NCBI GenBank assembly: GCA_017461665.1
Contig: JAFTXI010000033.1
Span: 1 to 58,156, forward strand
Direction of reading: 5' to 3'
Source of the DNA: Bacteroidales bacterium
GTDB taxonomy: Bacteria > Bacteroidota > Bacteroidia > Bacteroidales > F082
DNA length: 58,156 nt
Shown here: in pieces, positions 36,189 to 52,855 of the stretch
How the letters are laid out: each line of letters begins with the position of its first letter
Position numbering within the stretch: the stretch's first letter is position 1
Position numbers and translations under genes: made by a program
The notes under the pieces: generated by a model
What the model saw: the letters and a program-made list of their open reading frames with translations, nothing else
The model's database searches: none
Told to the model about the DNA's origin: nothing

Positions 36189-36623
36189 GTGAATTACATA
36201 GAGATACCTATCAATATTGTAAACATCGAAGGTGATGGTTTTCATCTCATCGCTGAGGGTTTTATCAACGACAAAGCTGCGCGTTTCGTCATAGACACCG
36301 GAGCATCAAGAACGGTTTTCGACAAAAACAATATTCTTAATTACATCGACAATCCTGAGTTCTCAGAGAAAGAAGGATTATCTGCTGGCATAGGCGGAAC
36401 AGACATCTCGAGTTTTATATTCTCCATCAAAGAATTACGTTTTGGCGACTTAGTCATCACAGATTATCAGGCTGTAGCGATGGATTTGTCTAACATAAAC
36501 AATTCTTACGCGATGATTAAACTTCCACCCATCGACGGCGTCCTCGGCGGCGATTTATTAATGAAACATAAGGCAGTGATAAGTTATAAGTTAAAGAAAA
36601 TGCGTCTCACTCCAATAAGATAA
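36189..36623 (+). CDS. Retropepsin-like aspartic protease
   Basis: 144 residues, starting with GTG because no in-frame ATG precedes the conserved region. The single active-site motif FVIDTGASRTVFD (about 34-46) is of the retropepsin type, followed by GGTD and a GVLGGDLLMKHKAVISY segment typical of dimeric one-domain aspartic proteases. No signal peptide, so cytosolic. The stop lies 2 nt before the response-regulator start, so the two genes are one unit. The substrate is unknown. Confidence 0.85.
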   Translation: MNYIEIPINIVNIEGDGFHLIAEGFINDKAARFVIDTGASRTVFDKNNILNYIDNPEFSEKEGLSAGIGGTDISSFIFSIKELRFGDLVITDYQAVAMDLSNINNSYAMIKLPPIDGVLGGDLLMKHKAVISYKLKKMRLTPIR

Positions 36624-37915: not shown

Positions 37916-38314
37916 GGGGTTGACTGGTTTTGACAGCTTGTAGAATGGTCATGTAAGCATGTTGAGCCTTGCAGTTAAGCTCATTAATCTTGGCTGCGAA
38001 AAATTAATTGGCGAAAATAACTACGCTCTCGCTGCTTGATCGAAGAACAGTAGATCGTTGCTTAATTAGTCCACAAGGTGGATTAACGGGACATCTCGCG
38101 GATGGACTTTCCTGATTCCGGTCCGGATACGAGGTGCTCATCAATTTCGGGATAGCGATGCAGAAGCTCCGGCTGCATAGCGAAATTTAGGAGATAAGGT
38201 CGAGTTTAGGGTGTCTGTTTCCTTGCTCGGCTCGAAAACCAACAACAGAATAAACATGTAGAAAGCATGGGTGTTCCTTGTTTGGACGAGGGTTCGACTC
38301 CCTCCAGCTCCACC
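37916..38314 (+). ncRNA. ssrA: Transfer-messenger RNA (tmRNA)
   Basis: The 5' end GGGGTTGACTGGTTTTGACAG and the 3' tRNA-like end with GGTTCGACTCC and CAGCTCC form the alanine-tRNA-like half; the acceptor arms GGGGTTG/CAGCTCC pair with one G-U. The tag frame lies at 38010-38039 and encodes GENNYALAA with a TGA stop. The RNA is about 400 nt, normal for tmRNA. It rescues stalled ribosomes and marks products for proteolysis. The CCA end appears to be added post-transcriptionally. The 3' end borders the ten-gene operon region. Confidence 0.97.
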
Positions 38315-38430: not shown

Positions 38431-39204
38431 TTATTCTGTAACAGGACGCACTGCTCGACCAGAACTATAGTCGGCGCAGTATACATCGAGACTACCACTA
38501 TCGAAGTATAGACTTCCTGCACCATAGCTACTACCCATGTACCGCGTAGAACTCCAATAGCTTCCGTGATCACCAGTATCTGGTGTCGATAATAATCCGT
38601 AGTAGCTATCGTAGTATCTATATCCAGCAGCAGGTAAAAAGATACTATTACCATTAGGTCCTGTCACCTTATAACCGTTATTACCATCTATGGAAGTCCA
38701 TGTCCAAAGACAGTTGATTATCAACTCTTGGAATTCCGCTACTGTCGGTAAACGCCATGTACCACCCCATTGCTTTACTGCATCAAATGCGTCACTATTT
38801 GTCATATCATCATTGTGTGTCAAATAACTTCCATATTCAGATAATGAACTTGCACCATAATTACATGTCGCCCACTTCAAGCCACTTGGCAATCCAAGAT
38901 CAACCCAATCATAACCATTTTTACTACCATGTGTCCTTGCAAACTGTGTTTGCTTTTCATCTTCTACTTCTGGTTTAGCTTCTTGTTTTGCTTTTGTTTT
39001 CACCTCTAATTCTGCCTTCAATCTTACTTGTTTTTGTTTAGTATTATCATATTGATAATATCCGAAGCCACATAATGCAAGAATAACTATTACTACTGCT
39101 ATCGTTATCGATAATGGTTTCATTTTCTTTTTCACCTTTATTTCACGGTATTCGCAATATTTGCTGTCATTAGAAATTTCTTCGCCACAATGAGGACATT
39201 TCAT
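38431..39204 (-). CDS. Membrane-anchored FISUMP-domain protein; candidate DGR-type variable C-terminus
   Basis: 257 residues. An N-terminal zinc-ribbon-like start (CPHCGEEISNDSKYC) has lost its fourth Cys. One transmembrane helix follows (about 31-48), then a charged coiled stretch (KAELEVKTKAKQEAKPEVED). The C-terminal FISUMP-type domain (about 95-257) begins YDWVDLGLPSGLKWATCN. Its last 65 residues are dominated by Tyr, Ser, Gly and Asp with NNC/NNT codons (RYYDSYYG, YMGSSYGAGSLYFDSGS), ending in the conserved GRAVRPV. FISUMP/C-lectin domains are known DGR targets, so this could be a variable repeat served by a distant template; no matching template is in the window. It is the last gene of the ten-gene operon and may be its external sensor. 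Confidence 0.75.
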   Translation of the reverse strand: MKCPHCGEEISNDSKYCEYREIKVKKKMKPLSITIAVVIVILALCGFGYYQYDNTKQKQVRLKAELEVKTKAKQEAKPEVEDEKQTQFARTHGSKNGYDWVDLGLPSGLKWATCNYGASSLSEYGSYLTHNDDMTNSDAFDAVKQWGGTWRLPTVAEFQELIINCLWTWTSIDGNNGYKVTGPNGNSIFLPAAGYRYYDSYYGLLSTPDTGDHGSYWSSTRYMGSSYGAGSLYFDSGSLDVYCADYSSGRAVRPVTE

Positions 39205-39362
39205 ACTATTTTATTTTTCATTTTATTTTTTTCTATATCTTTTTTCACGTCGTTTTTTTAAACCACTTGACGGAAATAAATCAAATGAATTGAATACGTT
39301 AAACACCACAAAGGTGACGTCTCCACATACATTTTTTATTTATTTATCTTGATATAATTATT

Positions 39363-39752
39363 TCAATCAAAGAAAATAACCTCGCCGAGATTGTAACCAT
39401 AAGTGGAAGTAATGTTTAGCAAAACTTCTTCTCTTGTGGCGTATTCATAACAATATTGTGTTTCAATGTAAAGTGATGTGCCGCATATTTGGTATAAGTT
39501 ACTGCTGACACGAGTTATCTCGACATCATATCTTCCACGGTCTATCTCTGTTGGAATAAGAACTGCTTCTACCTCTTCGATATTACCCCAACTATTGATA
39601 GCCTTAGAACCTTTATCAAGTTCTATCTTTTCATAGATTTTAGTAATTGTGTAAGCTTCAGTTTCTTGGGAATGCTTCGGTGTTGCAGAGACAAACAGCG
39701 TAAGACAAAGTGAAAGTGTTAATATTTTAACGATTGTTTTCATAATAGACAT
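39363..39752 (-). CDS. Small secreted protein of unknown function
   Basis: 129 residues from the ATG at 39752 (126 from the alternative at 39743). A signal peptide (KTIVKILTLSLCLTLFVSA) precedes a compact domain with three cysteines (ICGTSLYIETQYCYEY). No recognisable family. A longer start at 39788 would place charged residues before the signal peptide and is disfavoured. It lies between the trypsin-like lipoprotein and the FISUMP protein in the same orientation and probably belongs to the operon; the 158-bp gap to the FISUMP gene is the largest in the series. Confidence 0.55.
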   Translation of the reverse strand: MSIMKTIVKILTLSLCLTLFVSATPKHSQETEAYTITKIYEKIELDKGSKAINSWGNIEEVEAVLIPTEIDRGRYDVEITRVSSNLYQICGTSLYIETQYCYEYATREEVLLNITSTYGYNLGEVIFFD

Positions 39753-39807
39753 TTTATTTTTCTTGTAATTTTTATTTATACAAAACATGAATAGTGTCTC
39801 TCTACTA

Positions 39808-40575
39808 TTACTTCACGTATGGTCTAACAACGTTAATATCAACTGCAAAATTCAAGTTAGCACCAGAACTTTCTATGCCTGCCGTAGTTATGCCAATGAC
39901 TTCTCCATATTCGTTGATAAGCGCGCCACCACTGCTACCATGATCTATTGGAGCATTTATTTGAATCAAGTTATCTCCTCTAAGTTGTGATATTTCACCA
40001 GACGAAAATGTGTTTTCCAATCCTAAGGGACTGCCTATTGTGTAAACTTTTTCTCCTACTTTAGGAATCCTCTTTCCTACTGGAATATAGCTGAACGTAC
40101 GTCCTTGTGACTCAACTTGAAATATAATAAAATCGTTATCTTTACTTTTTGCGATTACATTTCTTATTTTGTAAGTATGTCCACTTGATAATTTAATTGT
40201 CTCATAACCAACTGTTGTTCCTTCAAAGACATGATAATTACTTACTCCTATTCCTGAGGAGGAAACAAAAAATCCCGAACCATGATAATCATTCCATCCG
40301 TCAGAAGTATAAATCATAAAGACAGCAGGATTGTATTTTTCAAAAATCTGCGAACCATTTAGTATTTTACTATCAACAGACGTAGATGCTACTGGAGCAT
40401 CAGTATGTGTAGTTCTTACTTCTTGAGTATTTCTTGTTGAATGCCTACGACTTTGCTGTTGAGTTCGTTCTTGTGTATATGAATTTCTCGTATTCGTATG
40501 AACGCCCTCACGTCTTCTGACACAAGAAAATAAAAGTAATAATATACAAATTCCTAATATGATTCTTTTCATCAT
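39808..40575 (-). CDS. Trypsin-like serine protease lipoprotein
   Basis: 255 residues. The signal ends in a lipobox (LLLLFSC), predicting lipid anchoring. A low-complexity Arg/Thr/Gln/Ser linker follows (about 20-70). The chymotrypsin-fold protease domain has His in SNYHVF, Asp in SKDNDFIIFQV and the nucleophile in DHGSSGGALIN, so the triad is complete. It resembles S1C/DegP-type proteases without a PDZ domain. The first ATG overlaps the stop of the ZorB-like gene (4 nt), so it is coupled to the motor genes. It could process a surface partner on activation, but the substrate is unknown. Confidence 0.88.
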   Translation of the reverse strand: MMKRIILGICILLLLFSCVRRREGVHTNTRNSYTQERTQQQSRRHSTRNTQEVRTTHTDAPVASTSVDSKILNGSQIFEKYNPAVFMIYTSDGWNDYHGSGFFVSSSGIGVSNYHVFEGTTVGYETIKLSSGHTYKIRNVIAKSKDNDFIIFQVESQGRTFSYIPVGKRIPKVGEKVYTIGSPLGLENTFSSGEISQLRGDNLIQINAPIDHGSSGGALINEYGEVIGITTAGIESSGANLNFAVDINVVRPYVK

Positions 40576-41249
40576 CTGATTTCTCCTGGTTTTGGAATTA
40601 TATGAATAACAAATCGTTGATTCTTTTTATTATGTCTATTGTCAGGCAATTCCCTAAACTTGCTAGCCTTACCACTTCCTGATATAATCACTTCACAATT
40701 ATGTATTCCGCCTGTTTCATCAAAATATATTTTTTGACTTGACCAAAACTTAACAAGACTTAAAGCTCTACTATAACTTAGTTCATAATTGCTTTGATAT
40801 CCATCATTTGATGTTTGACCTTCAATAATAAGCAAAAACTTAGCCTCTGGATTATCTTTTTGGGCTTTTAACATTGACTGTCTTATCGACTCTCCCGCTT
40901 TAGCCAATGTACGCCTTACATTGACAGGAATATCATTGATATCCGAACTATATCTTTTAAAAGACACTGTAATATTTTTCAACGTGTGTCGTTTATAGTT
41001 TTCATCAAACTTAAAATAATTTGTATCAATTGTTTGAGTAGCTTCCTGTATCTCTATTATTTTATTGATTTGCGCTTGCGTAATATCTCTTTCAATACGC
41101 ATTGCTTCTCGTTCTTCGCCGATTTTAACCATTTCCTTGTGAAGTAATGCCACCGTAACAACAAACAATACCAGCATTATAAAGAACATACTGGTCATCA
41201 AGTCAGAATAGCTTGTCCAAAAAAACGATTCTTTTTTGTTTTTCTTCAT
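40572..41249 (-). CDS. ZorB/MotB-like protein: one membrane helix plus OmpA peptidoglycan-binding domain
   Basis: 225 residues. The N-terminus FFWTSYSDLMTSMFFIMLVL places an Asp (D16) at the start of the only membrane helix, where MotB and ZorB have their proton-binding Asp. A coiled linker (about 40-70) leads to an OmpA/MotB-like domain (about 85-220) with LLIIEGQTSNDG and NYELSYSRALSLVKFW, the peptidoglycan-binding elements. It should form the stator partner of the ZorA-like protein encoded directly upstream with a 4-nt overlap. The similarity to Zorya ZorB is by architecture; sequence-level identity cannot be measured here. Confidence 0.82.
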   Translation of the reverse strand: MKKNKKESFFWTSYSDLMTSMFFIMLVLFVVTVALLHKEMVKIGEEREAMRIERDITQAQINKIIEIQEATQTIDTNYFKFDENYKRHTLKNITVSFKRYSSDINDIPVNVRRTLAKAGESIRQSMLKAQKDNPEAKFLLIIEGQTSNDGYQSNYELSYSRALSLVKFWSSQKIYFDETGGIHNCEVIISGSGKASKFRELPDNRHNKKNQRFVIHIIPKPGEIR

Positions 41250-42997
41250 ATCAGATTATATGATTTTAAAACCTTAAGAACAAGAAATGCAATTACCAAC
41301 AGACATGTCAAACAAACCAAGGAGCCACCGACTATCAGCAAAACTTTTGTCCATTTTGGCAAACTCTTTTGCACAATAGGAGTACCATTGTTACTAAATC
41401 CAACTCTTATTGAATTACGTTCCTTTATTTCTGATGCCAGAAAATTTATCGATGAAATCAATGTGTCCAAACGTCTATTCTGTTCATTTGAGGATTTCTC
41501 TGCTGTTTTTTCCATTTTTTCTAGACTTGCTTTAACCGCTGTAAGGTTTTTCAGTTCCTCTATTAAAGCTGTTGTTTCTTTAAGTTTTTCTTGCAAAATA
41601 TTTTGTTGTATAGCTGAAGATTTTTCAAGTTCAACAAATTGTTTACCAACATTCTCTTGCATCTTTATCAAAGCTTCCTGCAAGGCATCGTCAACCACAC
41701 CTACTGCCTTGGTCATTTCAGATTTTCTATTTTGGATTTGTTGCAGTTCTGCCTCAAAAAATTGTCCAAGTCTTTCGATGGTTTTCATTCTTTCTTCACC
41801 TTCATCAAGTTTTTCATTGAGTTCTTTAACCTGAGTCAGATATTTTTCAGAATTTTTAAGATATTTACCAAGTTTTGATAATTGTTCGGAATATTCTGAA
41901 ATATGCTGCGTTACATCTCCTAATTCTTGGGTGCTATCTTTCAACTTATCGTAGATTGTAATATTTGCAGTTGCTATTTCATTTATTCTCAATTCTTTTA
42001 TTGATTGAAGGACTTCCGCTTGACCTCTATAAGATTCATTAACCTTATCTAATGTTGCACTTAATTCTTTTGTATTTTCAGAGAATGTAGTGTTAAAATC
42101 TCTAAGATTTTGTCCCATTTTCACTAAAGTGCCGGAAACATCAGAAGACAACTGTGGCAATAGCTCAGACTGAATCCAACTTAAGAACTTATCTTTACCT
42201 TCCTCTTCATTCCTTTTTGCATTTTTGAAAATATACGAAGCAATGGTTGTTAACAATATACCCACAAAACTGGCTATCATCGCCAACGCAATTCCACTCA
42301 ACAAGGCAGAAACGCCCTCACTACCAGAATCATCTGATTTTAATTTAAGCTCTGTATTTTCACTCTTTACATAATCAATCAATTTATTCGCTTTAAGTTC
42401 ATCTATTACTCCACCTTCTTCAATAATTATTATATGGTCACTTTTAACTTCTTGTGCTGATTTTCTACCTACAATATCACTTACATCAGTTGTGCTATTA
42501 ATCAAATCATAATTACTATCTAATAAAGATGATAATCCACCGCTAAAGACTAAGAATGCAACGCCAACAATGATTCCTAGAACTGTACCCATTAAGCCTG
42601 TGTATAAAGGTGTGGGAATTTGAGTGTCTATTTCATTCTCTTTTGCATCACAATTTCTTTCAACTATATCTTTCATAAGATGATAGTCGCTTGCAGCGCC
42701 TTTATTTTTACGCAAATAAGTGTTTAGACTTGATATTATTCTCTCGAAAATAGAATCATGACTTCTACCATGACTAAAACCATCGAAAAGTTCATCATCA
42801 ATATCATCCGTCTCGTTTCCAACAACTATCTTCTTTCCCTTTAAAAAGATTTCCGAATCTTGAGCATACAAGCAATTTGTTGAATTTGGGAAAATATTTG
42901 AGAAACTGTTTATTTCTTTATATGTTTTGCTAAAGAAGTATATCTGAACTCCAATAATCAGCAAAACTATAATCCCTATTACGATATAGTGTACCAT
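41246..42997 (-). CDS. ZorA/MotA-TolQ-ExbB-like ion channel with long coiled-coil tail
   Basis: 583 residues. There is an N-terminal helix (about 3-22), a cytoplasmic loop, then a MotA/TolQ-type helix pair: TPLYTGLMGTVLGIIVGVAF (about 132-152) and VSALLSGIALAMIASFVGIL (about 232-252). A soluble domain (FLSWIQSELLPQL) and a long coiled coil (about 300-545) follow, with a final helix WTKVLLIVGGSLVCLTCLLV near the C-terminus. The core matches Zorya ZorA, where the long tail projects into the cytoplasm, but the extra C-terminal membrane helix is not something I recall for ZorA. An insertion between the helices (about 155-230) is also unusual. It pairs with the ZorB-like gene. Confidence 0.8.
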   Translation of the reverse strand: MVHYIVIGIIVLLIIGVQIYFFSKTYKEINSFSNIFPNSTNCLYAQDSEIFLKGKKIVVGNETDDIDDELFDGFSHGRSHDSIFERIISSLNTYLRKNKGAASDYHLMKDIVERNCDAKENEIDTQIPTPLYTGLMGTVLGIIVGVAFLVFSGGLSSLLDSNYDLINSTTDVSDIVGRKSAQEVKSDHIIIIEEGGVIDELKANKLIDYVKSENTELKLKSDDSGSEGVSALLSGIALAMIASFVGILLTTIASYIFKNAKRNEEEGKDKFLSWIQSELLPQLSSDVSGTLVKMGQNLRDFNTTFSENTKELSATLDKVNESYRGQAEVLQSIKELRINEIATANITIYDKLKDSTQELGDVTQHISEYSEQLSKLGKYLKNSEKYLTQVKELNEKLDEGEERMKTIERLGQFFEAELQQIQNRKSEMTKAVGVVDDALQEALIKMQENVGKQFVELEKSSAIQQNILQEKLKETTALIEELKNLTAVKASLEKMEKTAEKSSNEQNRRLDTLISSINFLASEIKERNSIRVGFSNNGTPIVQKSLPKWTKVLLIVGGSLVCLTCLLVIAFLVLKVLKSYNLI

Positions 42998-43001
42998 TAT
43001 T

Positions 43002-43775
43002 TTATACGAATTTTACGTTAGCTTTTTTGATAACTTTCCAAAAACCATCACCTGTTTTTTGCGCAAAACCAGAATCGCAGCCTTCAATGGTATTTCCATT
43101 ACCTAACTTATTACACGCCCCATTAATATAATCCTCACAACCAATAACTAACTCTTTTGCATCTTCGTACAATTCAAATTTAGCATTGTAATCATCTTCA
43201 AGTAAAAGTGTGTAAATTGTTTTATCCTTTGGTTGTTCAGAGACTTCCATAAAACACATATTAGCATCAACGGCAGATGCAAATAATTTTTTTATAATTA
43301 CAGTTGCTGGTTGAGGTTGAGGTTGTTGCTGTTGATATTGATCTGTGTTATACTTAACGGTCTGAGATTCTTTCTCATCGAGTCGTTTGCACTCGAGAAC
43401 TCGGTCAACAATAAGATTTATATCTGCCTCTGATAATTTATAGGGTTCAATTCTTGTCTTCACATTTTGAGGCATATTCCATTTCAAGTCATCAAGTTTT
43501 CCATCTAACTCACTGTATCTTTTTTTAGACTTTTCATCTACCCTAACAGATAAGGTCATGGCAAATGCAGCATTCGCTAACATTGAAATAATTAATGCAG
43601 TCCAGATTATTGTATTGTTTTTCGTTTTAGATTTAGAATTTTCCCTAACAGAAACTTTTTCTACATTCTCATTTTTAGAAGTATTTGTTTCTTTATTACT
43701 TCTATTACAAGATGTTAAAAGTATTGTGTTGACAAAAAACAACACAGAAATAATTATTATTTGTAATCTTTTCAT
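43002..43775 (-). CDS. Membrane protein/lipoprotein of the motor operon, unknown function
   Basis: 257 residues. A signal with a lipobox-like LLTSC (about Cys23) is followed by a polar region and a second hydrophobic helix (IIWTALIISMLANAAFAMTL, about 58-77). A charged segment, a Gln/Pro-rich linker (YQQQQPQPQPATV) and a C-terminal domain follow, the last with LYEDAKELVIGCEDYINGAC. The two hydrophobic segments make a lipoprotein or two-helix membrane protein equally possible. It sits 4 nt from the ZorA-like gene and 6 nt from the actin-like gene. No family recognised. Confidence 0.6.
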   Translation of the reverse strand: MKRLQIIIISVLFFVNTILLTSCNRSNKETNTSKNENVEKVSVRENSKSKTKNNTIIWTALIISMLANAAFAMTLSVRVDEKSKKRYSELDGKLDDLKWNMPQNVKTRIEPYKLSEADINLIVDRVLECKRLDEKESQTVKYNTDQYQQQQPQPQPATVIIKKLFASAVDANMCFMEVSEQPKDKTIYTLLLEDDYNAKFELYEDAKELVIGCEDYINGACNKLGNGNTIEGCDSGFAQKTGDGFWKVIKKANVKFV

Positions 43776-43781
43776 ATTCGT

Positions 43782-46700
43782 TTATTTTGCCATTTCTCTT
43801 GCCAAATTATTTAACATTCCAATTACCGGATAGAAGAATAATGTCTCTTCCAACTTACAACTATCATCAGCTTTCCATGTTTTCAGTTCTTCTTTCCTTG
43901 CATCTAAAGCTGATTTCGCAAATTGCTCGAGTTTAATATTGCATAAATCTTTAATACCATTAGATTTTCCTTGATTAACTCCAAAATTCTTGACATAGAA
44001 ATCTATCATTTCTGGAGACAAAATATAATCAATCATTTCTTGAACATGATTAACAACTTTGTTGATAACATTATCAGTCACATCATTATAACAGAAATTA
44101 TCGATAGTCTCACTGCCACTAACACCCAACAAATTGAATTTTAGCGAGTCAAAATCAATGTCAATATCATTATTACCTGTAAGAATACCGCCCTTACATG
44201 TTGCCGTCTTAGGATTTTTCTCACATATCACATCCAATACTTCTCCCTTTGCATATTCAGTTCCATATACATCTTCAAATATCATTTTGGCAAATTTTTT
44301 CAAAACATCCACGTCCTCCGACAACACTTTTATAGACTTTGAACCATTGCCACTAAACGCTATTGTAAGAGGTTTCTTTAATCCTTTTAATTTCATCTCT
44401 TTAGCCGTAAAATATAGCAAAGACGCATAGAACATTACAAATACATATTTCATACAATCGTCGCTCGACAATATATCTTGAAAATCCAAAGCTGTAATAT
44501 TATTTTTCTTAACATCTTTATTATTTGATAATGCATAGAAGAACGCTATAATATCAGGCGATTTTTTCTGTATCACAATATCATCAAGAGCTTTTAACAA
44601 ATCATTCAAACCATTGACATTTAATACACCTTTAAATCTATCCAAATATCTCGATACGAAACCATTGTTATCAGAATTATATCCAAAAGCGTCACCGAAT
44701 ATCGCATTTGAAGCAAATCGGAATGAAGACATCATCTTATATTCTGAATCTTCGACAACAAAAATATCGCTTGTCTCACCTCCAATATCTATTGTTAAAA
44801 CATTTGTCTGCGCACCCTGAGTTGTTTTATAGTGCTTATATGGAGCAATTGACTCTGGTATAGCAACAACATTTTGAATATCGTCTCCAAAATATTTTTT
44901 ATACAAATCGCACCAGATTTTCTTAAGTCCACTGATTTGATACTGAACCATACTTGTTGGATAGAACCATCTGATTTGGGTTTTTGCAAGACTTCCATTA
45001 TTCAACAGAACCTTGTTTCTCAATAAGATGACTATGTTCTCTATATACAACTCCACTCTTCTTCTTTCCTCGTTAGACCATTTCAAGTTTGTTTTGATAG
45101 AATAATATTTTGAACAAACTTCTTTTTCATATTTGAACGGAATATGAGCATGCGCCATCGAATGCACTGGTTTATCATAACTTATCGTATTGCATTCTGC
45201 AAATACAGTTCTCATTGGATAAGCATATTCGACATTGTCAATTATCGAAGGTACTAGATATCTATCATAAGCTCCCTCGATATTAACATCAACACCATAA
45301 TTATTGTGCAACCTCGAAACCTGCTTATCGTTTACTGTTATATCAAAGACTTGAGACGGAGTGCTATCCTTGCTATATTCAATGTGAGTATTCGTTGTTC
45401 CAAAGTCAATGGCGAATGAAAATTGACTATTTCCGATAACATCTTTAAGTTTAGGAATCAAAACACCAGAATTTGATCCGACAACAACTTCAATTCTGTC
45501 AAACAAATTTTTCTCTATCACATACGATACTATACCTGTTGTCCTATTGCTTTTAGGAGTATGAACTACTCTGACAGCAGTAACAACATTATTACCCAAG
45601 CAAGGATTCAGATAAACATCATTATCTCCATCATCAAATAATGCTATACGATAATATGCATAATCTTTATCTGCTTTAACAGGCGGTAAGACTCCAAGAC
45701 CAAATTTCTTAACAATTATTCCACCTAAATTATTGGAAATGTCGGCAATGTTATTGTTAAGATAGATTCTTTTATATTCAATACAATAATTCTTTTGAAC
45801 AGGAACACGTAAAACCACTGTGATACCACCTGCATTACTTCTAAACTCAAACATTTTTTGTCCGTTAGGCAGCGTCCCCAACAATTCATCTACAGTGAAG
45901 AAGTCGAAGAATAATTTCTTCAATGGCAACAAATACGACTCGTTTCCAGTGCTGATTGCATTGAAACCTCCATCATAGTAATCCTTATCATTCATACGAT
46001 AAGGCATTTTAACGATATTATCTTCCAAAAAATCACTGATTGTAAGATATGGATGGGAATCACTTGTAGATGGCAAAGTCCTTTTCTCCCACGGATTGCT
46101 ATCAAAATACGGAGCTGAATTGTTTGGATTCCATACTGTTGATGTGTATGTTAATGCTGAGTATTGATTTCCTTTTTCAACTGGAAGGACCAATGGCTTT
46201 TTGTCACCAACAAACACCTTAGAATTGATTTCAAAGTCGCTATTAATCTGAACAGCCGGCACTTCACATAGTGTTATACCGTTAATTACATCAACATTAT
46301 TGTTGTTAACAACAAGTTTTGTATAATCATTAATTGTGTTGGCATCAAACCTGCTTATTTGATTGATGAGACCTTGATTATTTACATCTTCTCCTAATTT
46401 ATTTATTGTGAGAGTTATATATTCACTCACTTCGGAAAATTCAATTGCAAAATTAGGGTATGATGCTTTCAAAGCACATAAATATTTAATATACTCAACA
46501 TCACGCTTATATAGTGGCTGATACTGATTATCAAATGGTTTATCGTTACCATCAAAAGAAATATAATTGGATATTCTTTTTGACAAATCATTTGCAGAAC
46601 TAAAGAATAACGTACATGGAGATGTTGCGCCAATAATATCATTTATCTTACATTGTGGACCTATGTACTGCAACATATAAATTCTCTGCATATTATTGAA

Positions 46701-47117
46701 ATTATATGTAGTACCATCTTGTAACATATACATTTCAAGAGTATCTGCAACAGTTTTATGGGAAGGAATCTGAGATTGTCTTAATGCTTGTAAATCATTT
46801 GTCTTATCCCAGAATACAATATTTACAAGATTTTTAAATTTAGGATAGTTGAAAAAAATCTGACCGATATCCAAACTGTCTGATACCATTTTGTGGTATA
46901 TCGTATTTCCATCAAGACCTATTTTATTTACTTCTTTGAATGCGTTTTTCACAAGATCTATTCTTGCAAAAGGAGATGGTATTGATGTTATTTCATTTTT
47001 TGCAGTGGCACCGTTAGGGTCATTTATCTGATTTATAACATTTGTACTATATGGTTGTGATTGTTGCCAATCAATCAATGTGTTATTATCTTGATGTAAT
47101 CTGAAAACTTTCGACAT
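43782..47117 (-). CDS. Large actin/Hsp70-fold ATPase
   Basis: 1111 residues from the ATG at 47117; a start at 47141 would overlap the tubulin-like gene and is disfavoured. The first about 560 residues are an unrecognised beta-rich region. The rest has actin/Hsp70 nucleotide motifs: phosphate-1 AIDFGTTNTHIEY (about 570), phosphate-2 LTIDIGGETSDIFVV (about 776) and adenosine motif AFSGNGSKS (about 917). Overall it recalls SrfB-like or other large bacterial actin homologues, but I cannot assign a family. No membrane helices, so cytosolic. It follows the tubulin-like gene by 4 nt. A tubulin and an actin-like NTPase in one operon with a membrane motor is striking. Confidence 0.75.
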   Translation of the reverse strand: MSKVFRLHQDNNTLIDWQQSQPYSTNVINQINDPNGATAKNEITSIPSPFARIDLVKNAFKEVNKIGLDGNTIYHKMVSDSLDIGQIFFNYPKFKNLVNIVFWDKTNDLQALRQSQIPSHKTVADTLEMYMLQDGTTYNFNNMQRIYMLQYIGPQCKINDIIGATSPCTLFFSSANDLSKRISNYISFDGNDKPFDNQYQPLYKRDVEYIKYLCALKASYPNFAIEFSEVSEYITLTINKLGEDVNNQGLINQISRFDANTINDYTKLVVNNNNVDVINGITLCEVPAVQINSDFEINSKVFVGDKKPLVLPVEKGNQYSALTYTSTVWNPNNSAPYFDSNPWEKRTLPSTSDSHPYLTISDFLEDNIVKMPYRMNDKDYYDGGFNAISTGNESYLLPLKKLFFDFFTVDELLGTLPNGQKMFEFRSNAGGITVVLRVPVQKNYCIEYKRIYLNNNIADISNNLGGIIVKKFGLGVLPPVKADKDYAYYRIALFDDGDNDVYLNPCLGNNVVTAVRVVHTPKSNRTTGIVSYVIEKNLFDRIEVVVGSNSGVLIPKLKDVIGNSQFSFAIDFGTTNTHIEYSKDSTPSQVFDITVNDKQVSRLHNNYGVDVNIEGAYDRYLVPSIIDNVEYAYPMRTVFAECNTISYDKPVHSMAHAHIPFKYEKEVCSKYYSIKTNLKWSNEERRRVELYIENIVILLRNKVLLNNGSLAKTQIRWFYPTSMVQYQISGLKKIWCDLYKKYFGDDIQNVVAIPESIAPYKHYKTTQGAQTNVLTIDIGGETSDIFVVEDSEYKMMSSFRFASNAIFGDAFGYNSDNNGFVSRYLDRFKGVLNVNGLNDLLKALDDIVIQKKSPDIIAFFYALSNNKDVKKNNITALDFQDILSSDDCMKYVFVMFYASLLYFTAKEMKLKGLKKPLTIAFSGNGSKSIKVLSEDVDVLKKFAKMIFEDVYGTEYAKGEVLDVICEKNPKTATCKGGILTGNNDIDIDFDSLKFNLLGVSGSETIDNFCYNDVTDNVINKVVNHVQEMIDYILSPEMIDFYVKNFGVNQGKSNGIKDLCNIKLEQFAKSALDARKEELKTWKADDSCKLEETLFFYPVIGMLNNLAREMAK

Positions 47118-47121
47118 GACT

Positions 47122-48528
47122 TTAGAATTTTTGTGATACAATCTCTTTCATCGCGCTGTAGAACAAGTTCATATATGATTGTTCCTTTGATGTTCCTTCC
47201 TGTTCCTGTTTACTTAAAACAGAATCTATTAGAACATAATTCTTTTTTTCCAAAATTTTCTTTTTGGGCTTATAATCTTTTACGGAATCGAATAAATCAC
47301 AGTTGTCGCCCAACTCAAACATCGTAAGTTTTCTATTGTTAGATGACAATTCTCCTAACCATGCAAAGAAATCATTTTGGAACATTTCGATATTCTTGTA
47401 AAAATTACCATTGAAAAATGACTTATCAAGTTTTCTATCTATAGCCCATGGTTGATGTTCATATTGTTTTTCCAGACAATTTTTGTTGTATTTTGTAAAG
47501 AAGAACATTCTCATCAAAGCATCTCTCATTATATTTTCAGTACTTTTTGCAAAATCAGAAAGAATTATATCATTGATTCCGGCTGGCAAGTTTTTAATTC
47601 CAAATTCTTTATGAATAGTTGGATTCAATCTTCCATTGACATTATTAACAAAATCAACAACCGCCAATGCAGAGATAAGTTCAACCAAATGAGCTGCATT
47701 TTTCTGTTTGGCACCACCTTCATGATTATCATACGCATTGTTTATATCGTCGGCAATATAGTAAAGCGCATCAATAGAATTGTTGCCACTGATATTTTTA
47801 TCGTAATACGACAAAGCCGATTTAGTTTTTGAAATAAACGTAGTTGAATCTATTTCACTTTTGTTATCTTGTTTAACATTGAAATATGGCAGAACCGTTA
47901 TACCACCTATGACAGCATCATTTATCAAAGCAAAGTTTGGAATAGTTCTATTGGCACGCAATGTTTTTAGTAATAACGGGAAACCACTGGCACCAGTTCC
48001 TCCAAATATAGAACTGATTATAAAGATTCTATCGCCTTGTTGAAAATTGTTTGCAAATTCTATAAATTCTCGTGATTGAGAAAACTGATTTAAAACTACA
48101 GAACCAATATTGGGATTTCCTTTAAAACCGACATTCATTTCTGCATTCAAATTCTTATCAGAAAACAACATTGACATCAAACATTGATTATTCGGAGTCA
48201 TTGAACTAACTCCCATATAATCTTGAAATTTCAATGTTTGTACCTTGTTATCTAATGGCAACTGAAAACCAGAAACGACTTGGTTAATCTCTGTTTTAAA
48301 GAACTCATTTTGACTTGTTCCGTCAAATGTAAGTTTACTTCTTATATCCGAATAACATCTCATTAAGGAGACTGTTCTTGTTAAATCTCCACCAGAAGCG
48401 TCTGGGTCAATAATAATAGGAACGATTGAATCATTTCCACAATCAACACCTGATGCTAATAACATTGTTAAGGATCTCAATACACGAGAACCTGTTCCGC
48501 CTATTCCAAATACATAAACTTTACTCAT
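47122..48528 (-). CDS. Tubulin/FtsZ-like GTPase (tubulin_2 type)
   Basis: 468 residues. The N-terminal strand-loop VFGIGGTGSRVLRSL begins a Rossmann-like GTPase fold. The tubulin signature is IISSIFGGTGASGFPLLLK (about 172-190), equivalent to GGGTGSG of FtsZ and tubulin. A DPDASGG segment and GGITVLPYF further match large tubulin-like proteins found in bacterial conflict and phage-like operons. The C-terminal part (about 330-468) is helical and ends in a charged tail. It is predicted to bind GTP and perhaps polymerise in the cytoplasm. It lies between the four-helix membrane protein and the actin-like gene. Confidence 0.8.
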   Translation of the reverse strand: MSKVYVFGIGGTGSRVLRSLTMLLASGVDCGNDSIVPIIIDPDASGGDLTRTVSLMRCYSDIRSKLTFDGTSQNEFFKTEINQVVSGFQLPLDNKVQTLKFQDYMGVSSMTPNNQCLMSMLFSDKNLNAEMNVGFKGNPNIGSVVLNQFSQSREFIEFANNFQQGDRIFIISSIFGGTGASGFPLLLKTLRANRTIPNFALINDAVIGGITVLPYFNVKQDNKSEIDSTTFISKTKSALSYYDKNISGNNSIDALYYIADDINNAYDNHEGGAKQKNAAHLVELISALAVVDFVNNVNGRLNPTIHKEFGIKNLPAGINDIILSDFAKSTENIMRDALMRMFFFTKYNKNCLEKQYEHQPWAIDRKLDKSFFNGNFYKNIEMFQNDFFAWLGELSSNNRKLTMFELGDNCDLFDSVKDYKPKKKILEKKNYVLIDSVLSKQEQEGTSKEQSYMNLFYSAMKEIVSQKF

Positions 48529-48546
48529 ATCTTTCAGTTTTTTTAA

Positions 48547-48972
48547 TTACAAAAATGGAGAGTGTTTACAGTTCTTGCTTCCCCACTTAATAATCATAGA
48601 GAAGACAAAAAACAACACAAATGTCCAGCAAAAACAAATACATGCAAATGGGAAAAATTCAGTCATTCCGTAATATGGTAAATCCAAGTTTTGTTCATAA
48701 TACAAATCAAATAATTTCCCGTGTGAAATTCCCCATCCTATTGCGAAATTCAATAAAGATGTAGCCAAATTAAATGCACCCCACCAATACCATCGATTAA
48801 GTCTTGGGTGATTTACTATATAATAATAGGAAACAGATACTATTACTATAGAAATAATCATCCATAGAAAAATTGGTAAATACGCATTGATGTCGTACAT
48901 GTCATCAGAAAATCCTTCAAAGTAGGCTCCGCCCCATAATTCGTAAATGTTTGCTATAAAATCTTGTATCAT
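48547..48972 (-). CDS. Small four-helix membrane protein
   Basis: 141 residues with about four hydrophobic segments (PIFLWMIISIVIVSVSYYYI, WWGAFNLATSLLNFAIGWGI, FFPFACICFCWTFVLFFVFS plus a shorter N-terminal one). Trp/Tyr residues lie at the predicted interfaces. It is conserved in position only: 18 nt upstream of the tubulin-like gene and 8 nt after the vWA-like gene. No family recognised; a membrane anchor for the cytoplasmic NTPases is one possibility. Confidence 0.65.
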   Translation of the reverse strand: MIQDFIANIYELWGGAYFEGFSDDMYDINAYLPIFLWMIISIVIVSVSYYYIVNHPRLNRWYWWGAFNLATSLLNFAIGWGISHGKLFDLYYEQNLDLPYYGMTEFFPFACICFCWTFVLFFVFSMIIKWGSKNCKHSPFL

Positions 48973-48980
48973 AACTTTAT

Positions 48981-50348
48981 TTATTTGTTTATTGTAATAT
49001 TAATTTCAAAATAATTATCGGCTCCTTTATCGTAAGCTTCTTTTATACCTGTCACAAAATACCATAATCCAAATGTCTTGTTTTGTTCTTCCGAATCTGT
49101 GCCTATATTTGTATCATCTACAGAAGAACTTTTTATCACCCATTCCGGCAACTCTCTCTTCATTTTTAGCGTAAAGCTTGGGACGGTTCTATTTAATGTC
49201 GAAACTTTTATAATGTGTGTACAATTTTGGGTTGCTTGCACATCGATTGGAGCTATTGTCGCATCTTCTATCTTTATAACTTCGTCTATAACATAATCTT
49301 CCGTAGCTTCGTATAGACGCACATCACATTTTTCATCATTACTCATAGGTATATCACTCAAATCTACCGCTATCGCCATAGCAAAAACATTTTTATGTTT
49401 GTCAGGCTGAGCTTCTCTTATCGTTGTCGCATCTGTTTTTCTAAATCTACCTACTTTATATGTATTCACGAGCACGCTACATTCAGGATTAAGTTCTTCA
49501 ATGTCTGTCAATGTGTATTTATTCTGGTAACCATTCATTCTTTGAACATCAAAATTTTCATTAAAAGAAGAAATCAATTCATCGACACCAATCACGCACA
49601 TATAATAAGGTCTCTTACATTTGAGTTTCTGTGATGCCTTTCCTGTAGGATGCTTATAATCCCAATAATTACCATCAAATTGCGAATAAAGTTGGATTAC
49701 TGTTGTGGATAACAACTGCTGATGCAGAGCCTTTAACTCTTTGCCTTTACCCAAAAACGCTTGTAATGTTTTATTCTTGCATTCAGATAGCAATACTGGA
49801 GCTGTTTGAGTTCCTGATATTGAGTATATGTTATCTGACAATAGAATAGAGATTGTTTTATTATCGGTCACATCAAGTATCATTTTTATGATATTATTCA
49901 AATTCGTTGATGCACCATTACCATTTGATTTAAACTCGGCAGGAGAAAGCATTTTTTGTGCAAAATTCAACAATGTAGCATTCGTTGTATTTTCTTTATG
50001 GATAATTCTTTCATTTATATAATGTAACTTAATATTATCCGTATCATAATAATACTCCAACCAAGCCAACATATTTTGAATAGCATCCTGATATTCCGAT
50101 GTTTTATTAATAAAACCATTCATACTACCGGAATTCTCAATGTAAATGTTTATGGTTGGCTTTACATTATTTTGTGGCGCGACATCTAACTTCCTAATTG
50201 GAGTGTCTTGATTTTCTGTTTTTTCAACAAATTCATTAGTTCCATTCGTTTCAACATTTCTTCCGTCTCGACCTTGTCGAGGTGTGTTTCTGGTACATCC
50301 TGTAATAATAGTAATTAGCAAGACTGCAAGTAAAATTTTATTTTTCAT
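48981..50348 (-). CDS. vWA-like lipoprotein, first gene of the ten-gene operon
   Basis: 455 residues from the ATG at 50348. A start at 50408 would run through the terminator of the upstream RNA and is rejected. A signal with lipobox IITGC (Cys18) leads to a linker and a von Willebrand factor A-like domain (about 75-290). The metal-site motif reads IENSGSM: Glu stands where DxSxS has Asp. The second conserved strand is ISILLSDNIYSI. The C-terminal part (about 300-455) is a beta-rich region. vWA domains usually mediate metal-dependent protein contacts. As a lipid-anchored exported protein it probably sits in the periplasm or at the surface as a receptor or scaffold. Confidence 0.75.
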   Translation of the reverse strand: MKNKILLAVLLITIITGCTRNTPRQGRDGRNVETNGTNEFVEKTENQDTPIRKLDVAPQNNVKPTINIYIENSGSMNGFINKTSEYQDAIQNMLAWLEYYYDTDNIKLHYINERIIHKENTTNATLLNFAQKMLSPAEFKSNGNGASTNLNNIIKMILDVTDNKTISILLSDNIYSISGTQTAPVLLSECKNKTLQAFLGKGKELKALHQQLLSTTVIQLYSQFDGNYWDYKHPTGKASQKLKCKRPYYMCVIGVDELISSFNENFDVQRMNGYQNKYTLTDIEELNPECSVLVNTYKVGRFRKTDATTIREAQPDKHKNVFAMAIAVDLSDIPMSNDEKCDVRLYEATEDYVIDEVIKIEDATIAPIDVQATQNCTHIIKVSTLNRTVPSFTLKMKRELPEWVIKSSSVDDTNIGTDSEEQNKTFGLWYFVTGIKEAYDKGADNYFEINITINK

Positions 50349-50392: not shown

Positions 50393-50583
50393 AAAAAAGT
50401 GCGAACAAATCTTACTTAGTATTCAGAGGTATCGCCAAACACCCACAACTACACAAATAAGAAAAGTCCGCACTAACGCGCGAAGCTTCACCCATTGCTG
50501 TCGTAGTTGTTATTCTTCTTTTTGGCGATTTTCTGAATATCACTCGCAATAAGTAAACACTTAAAATATATGTCTATTCCTGT
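50393..50583 (-). ncRNA. Structured RNA candidate, copy 1 (6S-like rod)
   Basis: About 190 nt. The minus strand runs from a TTTG/TATTAAGA promoter-like pair (near 50590-50623) to a U-tract after GTTCGCACTTTTTTT. Long-range stems are TATTCAGA/TCTGAATA, ATCGCCAAA/TTTGGCGAT and ACAACTAC/GTAGTTGT, nested as a rod. The copy at 51118-51307 keeps these stems with compensatory changes. Size and shape resemble 6S RNA, the regulator of housekeeping RNA polymerase; the identity is not proven. An alternative pairing of internal AGTGCGGAC with the 3' GTTCGCACT would form the terminator. Confidence 0.6.
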
Positions 50584-50699
50584 TTTCTACATCTTAATAT
50601 TTCTATTTTTTAATCCCGACAAAAGTAATTATTTTATTACAATATCCAAAATAAATCAACTTTTTTTTAAAATAAAAAATACTTGTGTTGTATAACTTC

Positions 50700-51117: not shown

Positions 51118-51307
51118 TAAAAAAGTGCGAACTAATCTTATTTAGAACTCTGAGGCATCGCCAAACGCCTATGACTACACAAATAAGAAAGTCCGCACAG
51201 AGTGCGAAGCATTACTTAATTGCTGTCGTAGTCATTCCTATTTTTTGGCGATTTTCAGAATCTCACTCGCAACAAGTAAACACTTACTTCAATATGTCTA
51301 TTTCAAC
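51118..51307 (-). ncRNA. Structured RNA candidate, copy 2 (6S-like rod)
   Basis: A homologue of 50393-50583 in the same orientation, about 190 nt, with its own promoter-like TTTG/TATAACGT pair upstream (near 51314-51350) and a U-tract end. The stems AATCGCCAAA/TTTGGCGAT, CTCTGA/TCAGAA and ATGACTAC/GTAGTCAT correspond to those of copy 1. Relative to copy 1, two adjacent pairs in the last stem and one in the second stem changed on both sides, preserving pairing. Confidence 0.6.
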
Positions 51308-51584
51308 TTTTTATTACGTTATATTTCTGTTTTGTTTATTCGCAACAAAGGTAATAATTTTACCGCAAATCATTAAACAAAAATCAACAATTAAAAAAAC
51401 ATTCAACATATTGCGCATCTGTGCGGTTTTCTTGCAAAGTTACAATCTACCCATACCTCTTGTCAAGTATTTTAAAAGAAAAATAAATGTCTTTAACAAT
51501 TTTTAATACAATCTTAATGAAAATATGAATCTTATGTTAATAGTTATTAGGCTTTTCAGCGCTATCTTCTTCACACAAAAATCT

Positions 51585-52657: not shown

Positions 52658-52729
52658 GGCCCCGTAGTTCAACGGATAGAATAAAGGATTCCGGTTCCTT
52701 AGATCTGGGTTCGATTCCCAGCGGGGTTA
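52658..52729 (+). tRNA. tRNA-Arg (anticodon CCG)
   Basis: 72 nt. The acceptor GGCCCCG pairs with CGGGGTT through two terminal G-U pairs. The D-arm is GTTCAACGGATAGAAT, the anticodon stem AAGGA/TCCTT with loop TTCCGGT, and the T-arm CTGGGTTCGATTCCCAG. CCA is not encoded. Confidence 0.9.
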
Positions 52730-52855
52730 CGAAATTTAGGGAGCAAGAGCGAGGACGAGGATAAGGACATTTTTATTTTTTTATACGGTCACTTACCTTT
52801 TTTACAACACCTATTAAAATCCTTATAATTCTTGAACAATCATTCAACAAAGAAT

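Follow-up and report, generated by a model that had tools for sequence, protein, structure and literature searches.

An eight-gene operon joining tubulin-like and actin-like NTPases to a ZorA/ZorB-like motor in Bacteroidales: a candidate mobile trans-envelope system

Introduction

What kind of machine is encoded by an operon in which a ZorA/ZorB-like motor stands together with a tubulin-like and an actin-like NTPase is the question raised by a locus of a Bacteroidales bacterium (F082; assembly GCA_017461665.1, contig JAFTXI010000033.1). The locus lies in a stretch of 58,156 nucleotides that was analyzed at its full length and is called the window here. A sequence-only reading of the window had proposed a ten-gene operon encoding a possible trans-envelope sensing machine, for which it could name no described system. 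The unit supported by comparison with other genomes is composed of eight genes (39808–50348), since the last two genes of the run are unmatched elsewhere. The sequences support the parts of this unit, their order and co-inheritance, the channel and wall motifs, and the enzyme classes, and they suggest a horizontally moving trans-envelope machine whose most likely role, held tentatively and at slightly under an even chance, is that of a conflict system directed against phages or other mobile elements.

Gene content and extent of the operon

The genes are as follows, in the order of transcription.

48981–50348, minus strand: gene 1, vWA-domain lipoprotein of 455 amino acids, with a motif (ExSxS, at ENSGSM) like that of the metal-ion-dependent adhesion site (MIDAS)
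48547–48972, minus strand: gene 2, small conserved membrane protein of 141 amino acids
47122–48528, minus strand: gene 3, tubulin/FtsZ-type GTPase of 468 amino acids, with a GGTGASG loop at residue 176
43782–47117, minus strand: gene 4, ASKHA (actin/FtsA-type) ATPase of 1111 amino acids with a large N-terminal region; TTG at 47141 is a possible alternative start
43002–43775, minus strand: gene 5, membrane protein of 257 amino acids with a lipobox-like start, a second hydrophobic segment and a conserved C-terminal domain
41246–42997, minus strand: gene 6, ZorA-like channel subunit of 583 amino acids with a long coiled coil and a C-terminal hydrophobic segment
40572–41249, minus strand: gene 7, ZorB-like subunit of 225 amino acids with membrane Asp16 and the OmpA-type motif LSYSRA
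39808–40575, minus strand: gene 8, trypsin-like protein of 255 amino acids with SNYHVF and GSSGG motifs and, by eye, a lipoprotein-type start (LLFSC)
39363–39788, minus strand: gene 9, small secreted-type protein, not conserved, probably outside the system
38431–39204, minus strand: gene 10, zinc-ribbon/FISUMP-type (Lcl_C) membrane protein, not conserved, probably outside the system

The ten open reading frames (ORFs) that had been placed on one strand are all found on the minus strand, from 50348 down to 38431. The tight spacing also claimed for most of them holds from gene 1 to gene 9, with intervals of 8, 18, 4, 6, 4, −4, −4 and 19 nucleotides (the interval between genes 3 and 4 becomes −20 if gene 4 starts at TTG 47141); gene 10 follows only after 158 nucleotides, the sole loose spacing of the strand run. 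A consensus scan of the minus strand from gene 8 to gene 10 gave no terminator-like site, and such sites are no commoner in the region than in shuffled sequence (5 against 5.1 expected). The Pfam matches of the window proteins, weak in most cases, are Tubulin (6e-5), MotA_ExbB (4e-4), MotB_plug (0.01), Trypsin_2 (1e-22), and Lcl_C (2e-8), while the same library scan gave no convincing family for genes 1, 2, 4, 5, and 9.

The membership of ten was not upheld. When 73 loci with 1083 ORFs were compared by phmmer (E up to 10), genes 9 and 10 matched only themselves and had no counterpart even in the sister locus L010, although the ATPase there is 82% identical; a ten-gene unit was ruled out by their lack of matches in the 72 other loci.

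Distribution and co-inheritance

Of 60 related genomes, eight have a match to gene 4: seven of the 36 in the genus (its own included) and one elsewhere in the order. A pattern-based scan of a species collection with the gene 4 alignment found at least 15 loci, 14 of them with Bacteroidota names and one in a Clostridiales metagenome-assembled genome. The tubulin alignment matched 13 of 395 genomes of the phylum, 23 of 393 genomes of the order and three viral-contig loci, and tblastn with the window tubulin retrieved six plasmid records, of which five are from cyanobacteria and the sixth is a Prevotella replicon of 1.77 Mb.

Altogether, 65 loci, many of them cut by contig ends, were annotated by iterated profiles (E < 1e-3). 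The tubulin is present in all 65, gene 4 in 59, the vWA partner in 48, the small membrane protein in 42, gene 5 in 36, ZorA in 30, ZorB in 29, and the trypsin-like protein in 10. Among the 42 loci fetched by the tubulin query alone, 36 carry gene 4 (the others are L049, L064, L066, L068, L075, and L076), and the tubulin and ASKHA genes are adjacent on the same strand in 58 of the 59 loci carrying both. The co-conservation of at least six genes, named by the sequence-only reading as the mark of a system, is thus borne out: many loci encode the vWA protein, the tubulin, and the ATPase together with the small membrane protein and both ZorA and ZorB.

Chance assembly of unrelated genes would account for the behavior of genes 9 and 10, but the order of genes 1–4, and often 5–7, is kept across genera (that of genes 1, 3, and 4 also on cyanobacterial plasmids), which refutes this explanation for genes 1–7. 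It can practically be dismissed, with the caveat that gene 8 has a homologue in only 10 of the 65 loci.

Where all four proteins are present (21 non-redundant loci, near-identical ones having been removed at >90% tubulin identity), the distance matrices of tubulin and ASKHA correlate at 0.956, those of tubulin with ZorA and ZorB at 0.934 and 0.886, and those of ASKHA with ZorA and ZorB at 0.964 and 0.869; every one of these values exceeds all of 5000 permutations. On a tubulin tree of 52 loci (near-identical loci removed at >95%; L010 was left out because its tubulin is cut), the motor is present in 25, absent from 20 in which over 4.5 kb would have been available for it, and undecided in seven, and its presence changes eight times compared with a mean of 14.9 after shuffling. 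In our reading, the motor travels with the core but has been lost, or less often gained, several times. Independent inheritance of the motor and the NTPases, which would have refuted the sequence-only reading, is not seen where both occur (0.87–0.96), but the motor is absent from part of the loci and has relatives elsewhere.

Loci of the same genus fall into separate supported clades, and the nearest relative of the window on the tree, L053, belongs to another family, which indicates horizontal transfer. In one viral-contig record (L032), a motor-less core has phage tail-like genes and a match to a DNA methyltransferase next to it.

Tubulin-like and ASKHA proteins

Gene 3 was called tubulin-like from its sequence, and this assignment stands. 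It matches PF00091 at 6e-5 and PF13809 (Tubulin_2) at 2e-4, and neither score reaches the curated threshold (for Tubulin_2, 21.0 bits where 27 are required). At E ≤ 0.05, 18 of 19 tubulin members match PF00091 and 14 of 19 match PF13809, and the G[GA]TG[AS][SAG] loop is found in all 63 tubulin proteins of at least 380 residues. The window protein also matches a Gloeothece 'tubulin-like doman-containing protein' at 3e-10, which itself scores 40.8 bits against Tubulin_2, above the cut-off of 27. A profile search with the tubulin alignment gave no PDB match.

Gene 4 had been described as an actin/Hsp70 ATPase. The ASKHA (actin/FtsA) type is supported: the best PDB profile match of its alignment is MreB (E 1e-4; MreB and an actin-family protein from 1e-4 to 7e-3), and the FtsA model is matched by 10 of 19 members at E ≤ 0.05, compared with three of 19 for Ppx-GppA. 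Three ASKHA nucleotide motifs, which we take to be PHOSPHATE-1, PHOSPHATE-2, and ADENOSINE, are present in the window protein at about residues 571, 777, and 922, preceded by about 560 N-terminal residues. By our own patterns, they occur in 46, 58, and 38 of 58 gene 4 proteins, respectively, and all three occur in 37.

Membership of gene 4 in the SrfB family (PF07520) was considered and rejected, as the window protein has no match at E ≤ 1 and only one of 19 members matches at 0.05. An SrfB-family gene is found elsewhere in the same genome (G000:C39:74706-77744; loci L035 and L038), beside proteins of about 1,000 residues. In a congener (L040), an SrfB protein with weak similarity to gene 4 (4e-6) lies near two trypsin-like genes, possibly a parallel system. 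The loci L050, L052, and L067 form a distant tubulin/ASKHA branch, near which a TerD gene (L052, 4e-51) and a PP2C gene (L067, 5e-16) are found.

vWA protein, small membrane protein, and gene 5

None of 22 gene 1 members matches a VWA Pfam model at E ≤ 0.05. Comparison by HHalign with VWA_2 domains of related genomes gave a probability of 91% and E of 9e-7, with the DxSxS, T, and D residues aligned; against the same domains, seven other alignments of the study gave E from 0.014 to 0.82. The MIDAS residues of a vWA domain therefore appear to be present in gene 1, and a lipobox pattern begins 38 of the 48 members, in agreement with the vWA-like lipoprotein originally described. Gene 2 is a membrane protein as had been said, but its four helices are no more than putative, as a crude hydropathy scan shows two strong peaks. 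Gene 5, described as a lipoprotein, does have a lipobox-like start, but another hydrophobic segment follows around residue 64, and the C-terminal domain is conserved. Profile searches with the vWA and gene 5 alignments gave no PDB match.

The company of a vWA protein and an ion-driven motor might also point to a force-transducing device for secretion, uptake, or motility. The vWA protein would then transmit the pull of the motor to partners in the periplasm or outer membrane, and the enzymes would be cargo or process nutrients. Such a role has a precedent in the vWA proteins proposed as force transducers beside TolQ/TolR-like motors (PMC12204202, in the part of the text available). However, the lipoprotein-type start of 38 of the 48 vWA members differs from the transmembrane-plus-linker layout given there (the SHLS motif lay outside the search), a library scan recognized no outer-membrane channel among the eight genes, and the core also occurs without the motor, so that this explanation is distinctly unlikely.

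ZorA/ZorB-like motor

In PADLOC, the window motor matches ZorB1 (8e-15) and ZorA2 (3e-7). The window ZorB scores 29.3 bits against the NCBIfam ZorB1 model, whose cut-off is 400, and matches OmpA with an E of 0.063. In the PDB, the ZorB profile matches 8vvn (4e-12) and 8qyd (3e-6) best, both of which we take to be Zorya structures, although the PDB listing does not carry that name; the ZorA alignment matched only unrelated coiled coils. The membrane aspartate pattern is found in 24 of 28 ZorB ORFs (the exceptions are L028, L050, L051, and L058) and the LSx2RA-type wall-binding pattern in 25 of 28, and the window protein has both, as Asp16 and LSYSRA. In the ZorB of L028 (14127-14780), glycine replaces the conserved aspartate, and therefore the motor of that locus may not conduct ions.

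ZorA has a long coiled coil, and 10 of its 35 sequences have a hydrophobic segment at the C-terminal end (window, L010, L017, L020, L053, L061, L062, L089, L090, and L092). An enzyme gene follows ZorB in nine of these 10 and in three of the 25 others, by hand-entered enzyme labels; plain ancestry may explain the link. In L017 and L020, ZorA is divided between two ORFs.

ZorB genes of this profile occur in 18 of the 393 genomes of the order. Ten are linked to the system, eight because both share a contig and two (G743 and G705) by the presence of gene 4 and/or gene 5; four stand in other surroundings (G506, G629, G637, and G759). The other four are undecided: the contig of G657 is short, no partners accompany the gene in G505, and in G476 and G652 it sits at a contig end. 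In L094, a DrmD/ZorD-like helicase gene and TmtA accompany the ZorB-type motor, and ZorB-like genes stand beside kinase, PP2C, and vWA genes (L093), an ADP-ribosylglycohydrolase-like gene (L088), and GTPases (L095), as labeled by eye. Given these varied surroundings, this motor type seems to be reused by several modular systems.

A divergent Zorya with replaced effectors would explain the PADLOC scores, the best PDB matches of the ZorB profile, and the long ZorA coiled coil. However, no ZorC, ZorD, ZorE, ZorF, or ZorG match was found among the ten window genes by PADLOC (the rest of the genome was outside this search), the NCBIfam ZorB1 score is far below its cut-off, and the hydrophobic end of ZorA, the window's included, is at odds with a free cytoplasmic tail, which leaves this explanation very improbable; a plain Zorya is ruled out by the effectors missing from the operon. 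The earlier statement that Zorya effectors are absent was right for the ten genes, and other loci carry nucleases after ZorB.

Exchangeable enzymes downstream of ZorB

A protease or nuclease profile is matched in the same-strand run after ZorB in 13 of 26 linked non-redundant loci (near-identical loci removed at 90% ZorB identity): the window, L010, L013, L014, L017, L020, L033, L049, L053, L056, L061, L063, and L089. The Pfam families include SNase (L017, L020, and L061), Endonuclease_NS (L013), retropepsin-type (gag-asp) protease (L010, L020, L053, and L063), Exo_endo_phos (L020), and Trypsin_2 (window). In 33 non-redundant ZorB loci, the enzyme profiles match 20 of 58 genes among the first four downstream and four of 319 other non-core genes (Fisher p 1.5e-14). 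As genes in the downstream position served to seed the profiles, this figure is a measure of concentration and in part circular. Related prolyl-oligopeptidase-sized genes follow ZorB in L021, L022, and L041, with a Pfam Peptidase_S9 match for L021. In motor-less loci, a retropepsin-type protease is found in L044 and L054 and a YkuD protein in L048.

The enzymes mostly begin with a lipoprotein-like stretch or a membrane anchor, and the residues after the lipobox cysteine tend to be basic; by eye, the Endonuclease_NS proteins have an N-terminal hydrophobic stretch and no lipobox. In Bacteroidota, the signal for surface export consists of acidic residues after the lipoprotein cysteine. Since the residues here tend to be basic and this acidic signal is missing, the enzymes are likelier to be periplasmic than surface-exposed. 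The trans-envelope arrangement of the sequence-only reading fits in its membrane motor, NTPases inside, and vWA protein and protease beyond the membrane, but its surface location gives way to a likelier periplasmic one.

These enzymes also bear on a role in membrane or envelope remodeling, in which tubulin and ASKHA filaments would shape the inner membrane, the motor and vWA protein would couple them to the wall and outer membrane, and the enzymes would trim the envelope. The YkuD (L,D-transpeptidase) gene of L048 (Pfam 9e-22), a related gene in L054, and the wall-binding motif of ZorB are consistent with this role, whose FtsZl1/vWA/OmpA logic is already in print (PMC2875224, in the part available). 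However, SNase, Endonuclease_NS, and Exo_endo_phos have no obvious remodeling role, and both the patchy distribution and the extra segment beside the tmRNA gene described below speak against it. Remodeling is thus a serious though improbable alternative.

Genomic site

The operon lies in an extra segment bounded by two RNA genes.

37916–38314, plus strand: transfer-messenger RNA (tmRNA) gene, one edge of the extra segment
38315–52657: extra segment of 14.3 kb between tmRNA and tRNA-Arg
52658–52730, plus strand: tRNA-Arg(ccg), the other edge of the extra segment

In two genomes of the same genus without a gene 4 match (L085 and L087), tmRNA and tRNA-Arg(ccg) are 78 bp apart, and best-hit counterparts of the four window genes after tRNA-Arg are found in that position. 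Downstream of its tmRNA gene, a third congener (L081) encodes a PDC-S02 protein together with a type I restriction system. In the sister genome, the contig with the regulator and tmRNA (L080) is short, and the system sits on another contig. These few examples suggest that the tmRNA/tRNA-Arg interval is a variable site. Since tRNA genes lie near only one of 27 other loci (L023), such a site is no general feature of the system. The segment may also have been lost from the two congeners instead of gained by the window genome.

Integration with duplicated ends was rejected: among 20 listed direct-repeat families (of at least 60), none has one copy at the 3′ end of the tmRNA gene and another at the opposite edge, and by eye the two edge sequences are dissimilar. 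Inspection of the ORFs of the extra segment by eye revealed no integrase. Just upstream of the operon, a stretch of about 217 bp is duplicated (50393–50609 and 51119–51333, 79% alike), with one more weak match in the genome. Near the tmRNA gene, a small ORF (36189–36623, plus strand) with an aspartyl-protease-like 'DTGAS' stretch, noted by eye, is 83% identical in the sister genome.

Proposed function

A role as a conflict system is suggested by the patchy spread, the plasmid copies, the segment beside the tmRNA gene, the restriction system of L081, and the phage tail-like genes of L032. The near-constant core, the co-inherited motor with its channel and wall motifs, and the exchangeable enzymes after ZorB count for it as well. 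The L094 motor, with its DrmD/ZorD-like helicase and TmtA neighbors, was placed on the same side, together with the published precedent of a trypsin and Endonuclease_NS pairing (PMC7159879, in the part available).

Several observations weigh against it. PADLOC gives a convincing named-component match for the motor genes only; seven of the ten genes have no match at all, and the remaining matches are to coiled-coil proteins (JetC, LmuB, and the like) or a generic protease. A defense system is found at one of three annotated tmRNA sites, and the window tubulin has no match in phage records by tblastn. The motor is missing from 20 of 45 decidable loci, and the two cyanobacterial loci fetched, of five, show no motor match and no recognized enzyme. 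Thirteen of the 26 linked loci have no recognized enzyme after ZorB, and the downstream enrichment is in part circular, as said. Shared host descent adds to the matrix correlations, and the tree comes from a quick search and has long branches (L051, L031, and L078 with L079), its 'with motor' state including L050, with a weak ZorB match (1e-4), and the rearranged L051.

For the conflict system, we infer every interaction as well as the trigger, the location of the enzymes, and their target. The periplasmic vWA protein and the wall-binding domain of ZorB would sense damage to the envelope or its penetration, and the tubulin and ASKHA proteins would form a switch or filament that depends on NTP and lies on the cytoplasmic side of the inner membrane, to which gene 5 would couple it. 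Ion flow through ZorAB, which is reported to matter in Zorya (PMC11890865, in the part available), would move or activate the complex, and a periplasmic protease or nuclease would then attack the intruder or its DNA; in the window, this output enzyme would be the trypsin-like gene 8. It is conceivable, if rather doubtful in this full form, that tubulin- and actin-like NTPases gate a wall-bound, ion-driven motor that triggers exchangeable periplasmic proteases and nucleases, so as to defend the cell before or during the passage of DNA across the envelope. If true as defense, periplasmic interception by a motor-driven machine would extend known bacterial immunity; if the system is not defensive, a mobile tubulin-plus-actin envelope machine would be unexpected in itself.

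Comparison with described systems

Several described systems share parts of the set. The ZorA5B2 motor of Zorya resembles that of the window in its ZorA/ZorB-like pair, membrane aspartate, wall-binding domain, and coiled-coil tail, with nucleases in some of the loci studied here. Unlike in Zorya, as far as the available text describes it, tubulin, ASKHA, and vWA genes stand in place of ZorC, ZorD, and ZorE, the enzymes have export-type starts, and ZorA has a hydrophobic end in part of the sequences (PMC11890865). The DO-GTPase/GAP1-N2 conflict systems likewise combine tubulin or HSP70-type components with vWA proteins in a predicted conflict machinery (Kaur et al., 2020; PMC7159879, in the part available). 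Membership in them was ruled out, as none of the ten genes matches DO-GTPase or GAP1 at E ≤ 1; a weak DO-GTPase1 match (7e-5) is found in L011. In the same source, the trypsin and Endonuclease_NS (NucA) 'System 3', mostly from alphaproteobacteria, is predicted to be a proteolysis-activated conflict system and resembles the present loci in its membrane-linked pairing of protease and nuclease, but the available text describes it without a motor, tubulin, or ASKHA gene. The vWA proteins beside TolQ/TolR-like motors, those of Bacteroidetes included, are similar in being encoded next to an ion-driven motor, but they are tethered by a transmembrane segment in the text available (PMC12204202), whereas here the vWA protein is of the lipoprotein type and has tubulin and ASKHA partners.

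The closest described kin are the FtsZl1 (Pfam Tubulin_2) neighborhoods with vWA and OmpA-domain proteins, predicted to remodel membranes (Makarova and Koonin, 2010; PMC2875224). According to the part of that paper available, a vWA protein is present in the majority of them and an OmpA-family protein in several genomes, a P-loop GTPase or protein kinase is frequent but not universal, an extended coiled coil follows the FtsZ-like domain in the majority, and its Figure 1 includes a member from Bacteroides caccae. The window tubulin probably belongs to the same broad family, and the vWA, OmpA-domain, and membrane partners are shared; no P-loop GTPase or protein kinase match was found among its ten genes at E ≤ 1. 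The view that no described system could be named is thereby revised in part: kin of this set are described, but the ASKHA partner, the MotA/ZorA-type channel, and the swappable protease or nuclease are not named in that text, although supplementary tables may list them as unnamed families. Among the open-licence papers listed by literature searches, none is a functional study of FtsZl1-type tubulins and none joins tubulin, ASKHA, Zor-type motor, and envelope enzymes. The ASKHA partner, the ZorA/ZorB motor, and the exchangeable enzymes are therefore taken as new relative to these sources. On these grounds, we read the window set as a motor-driven variant of the FtsZl1/vWA/OmpA neighborhood, tying this tubulin branch to a near-constant ASKHA partner, a Zorya-like motor, and exchangeable enzymes in a compact, testable eight-gene unit.

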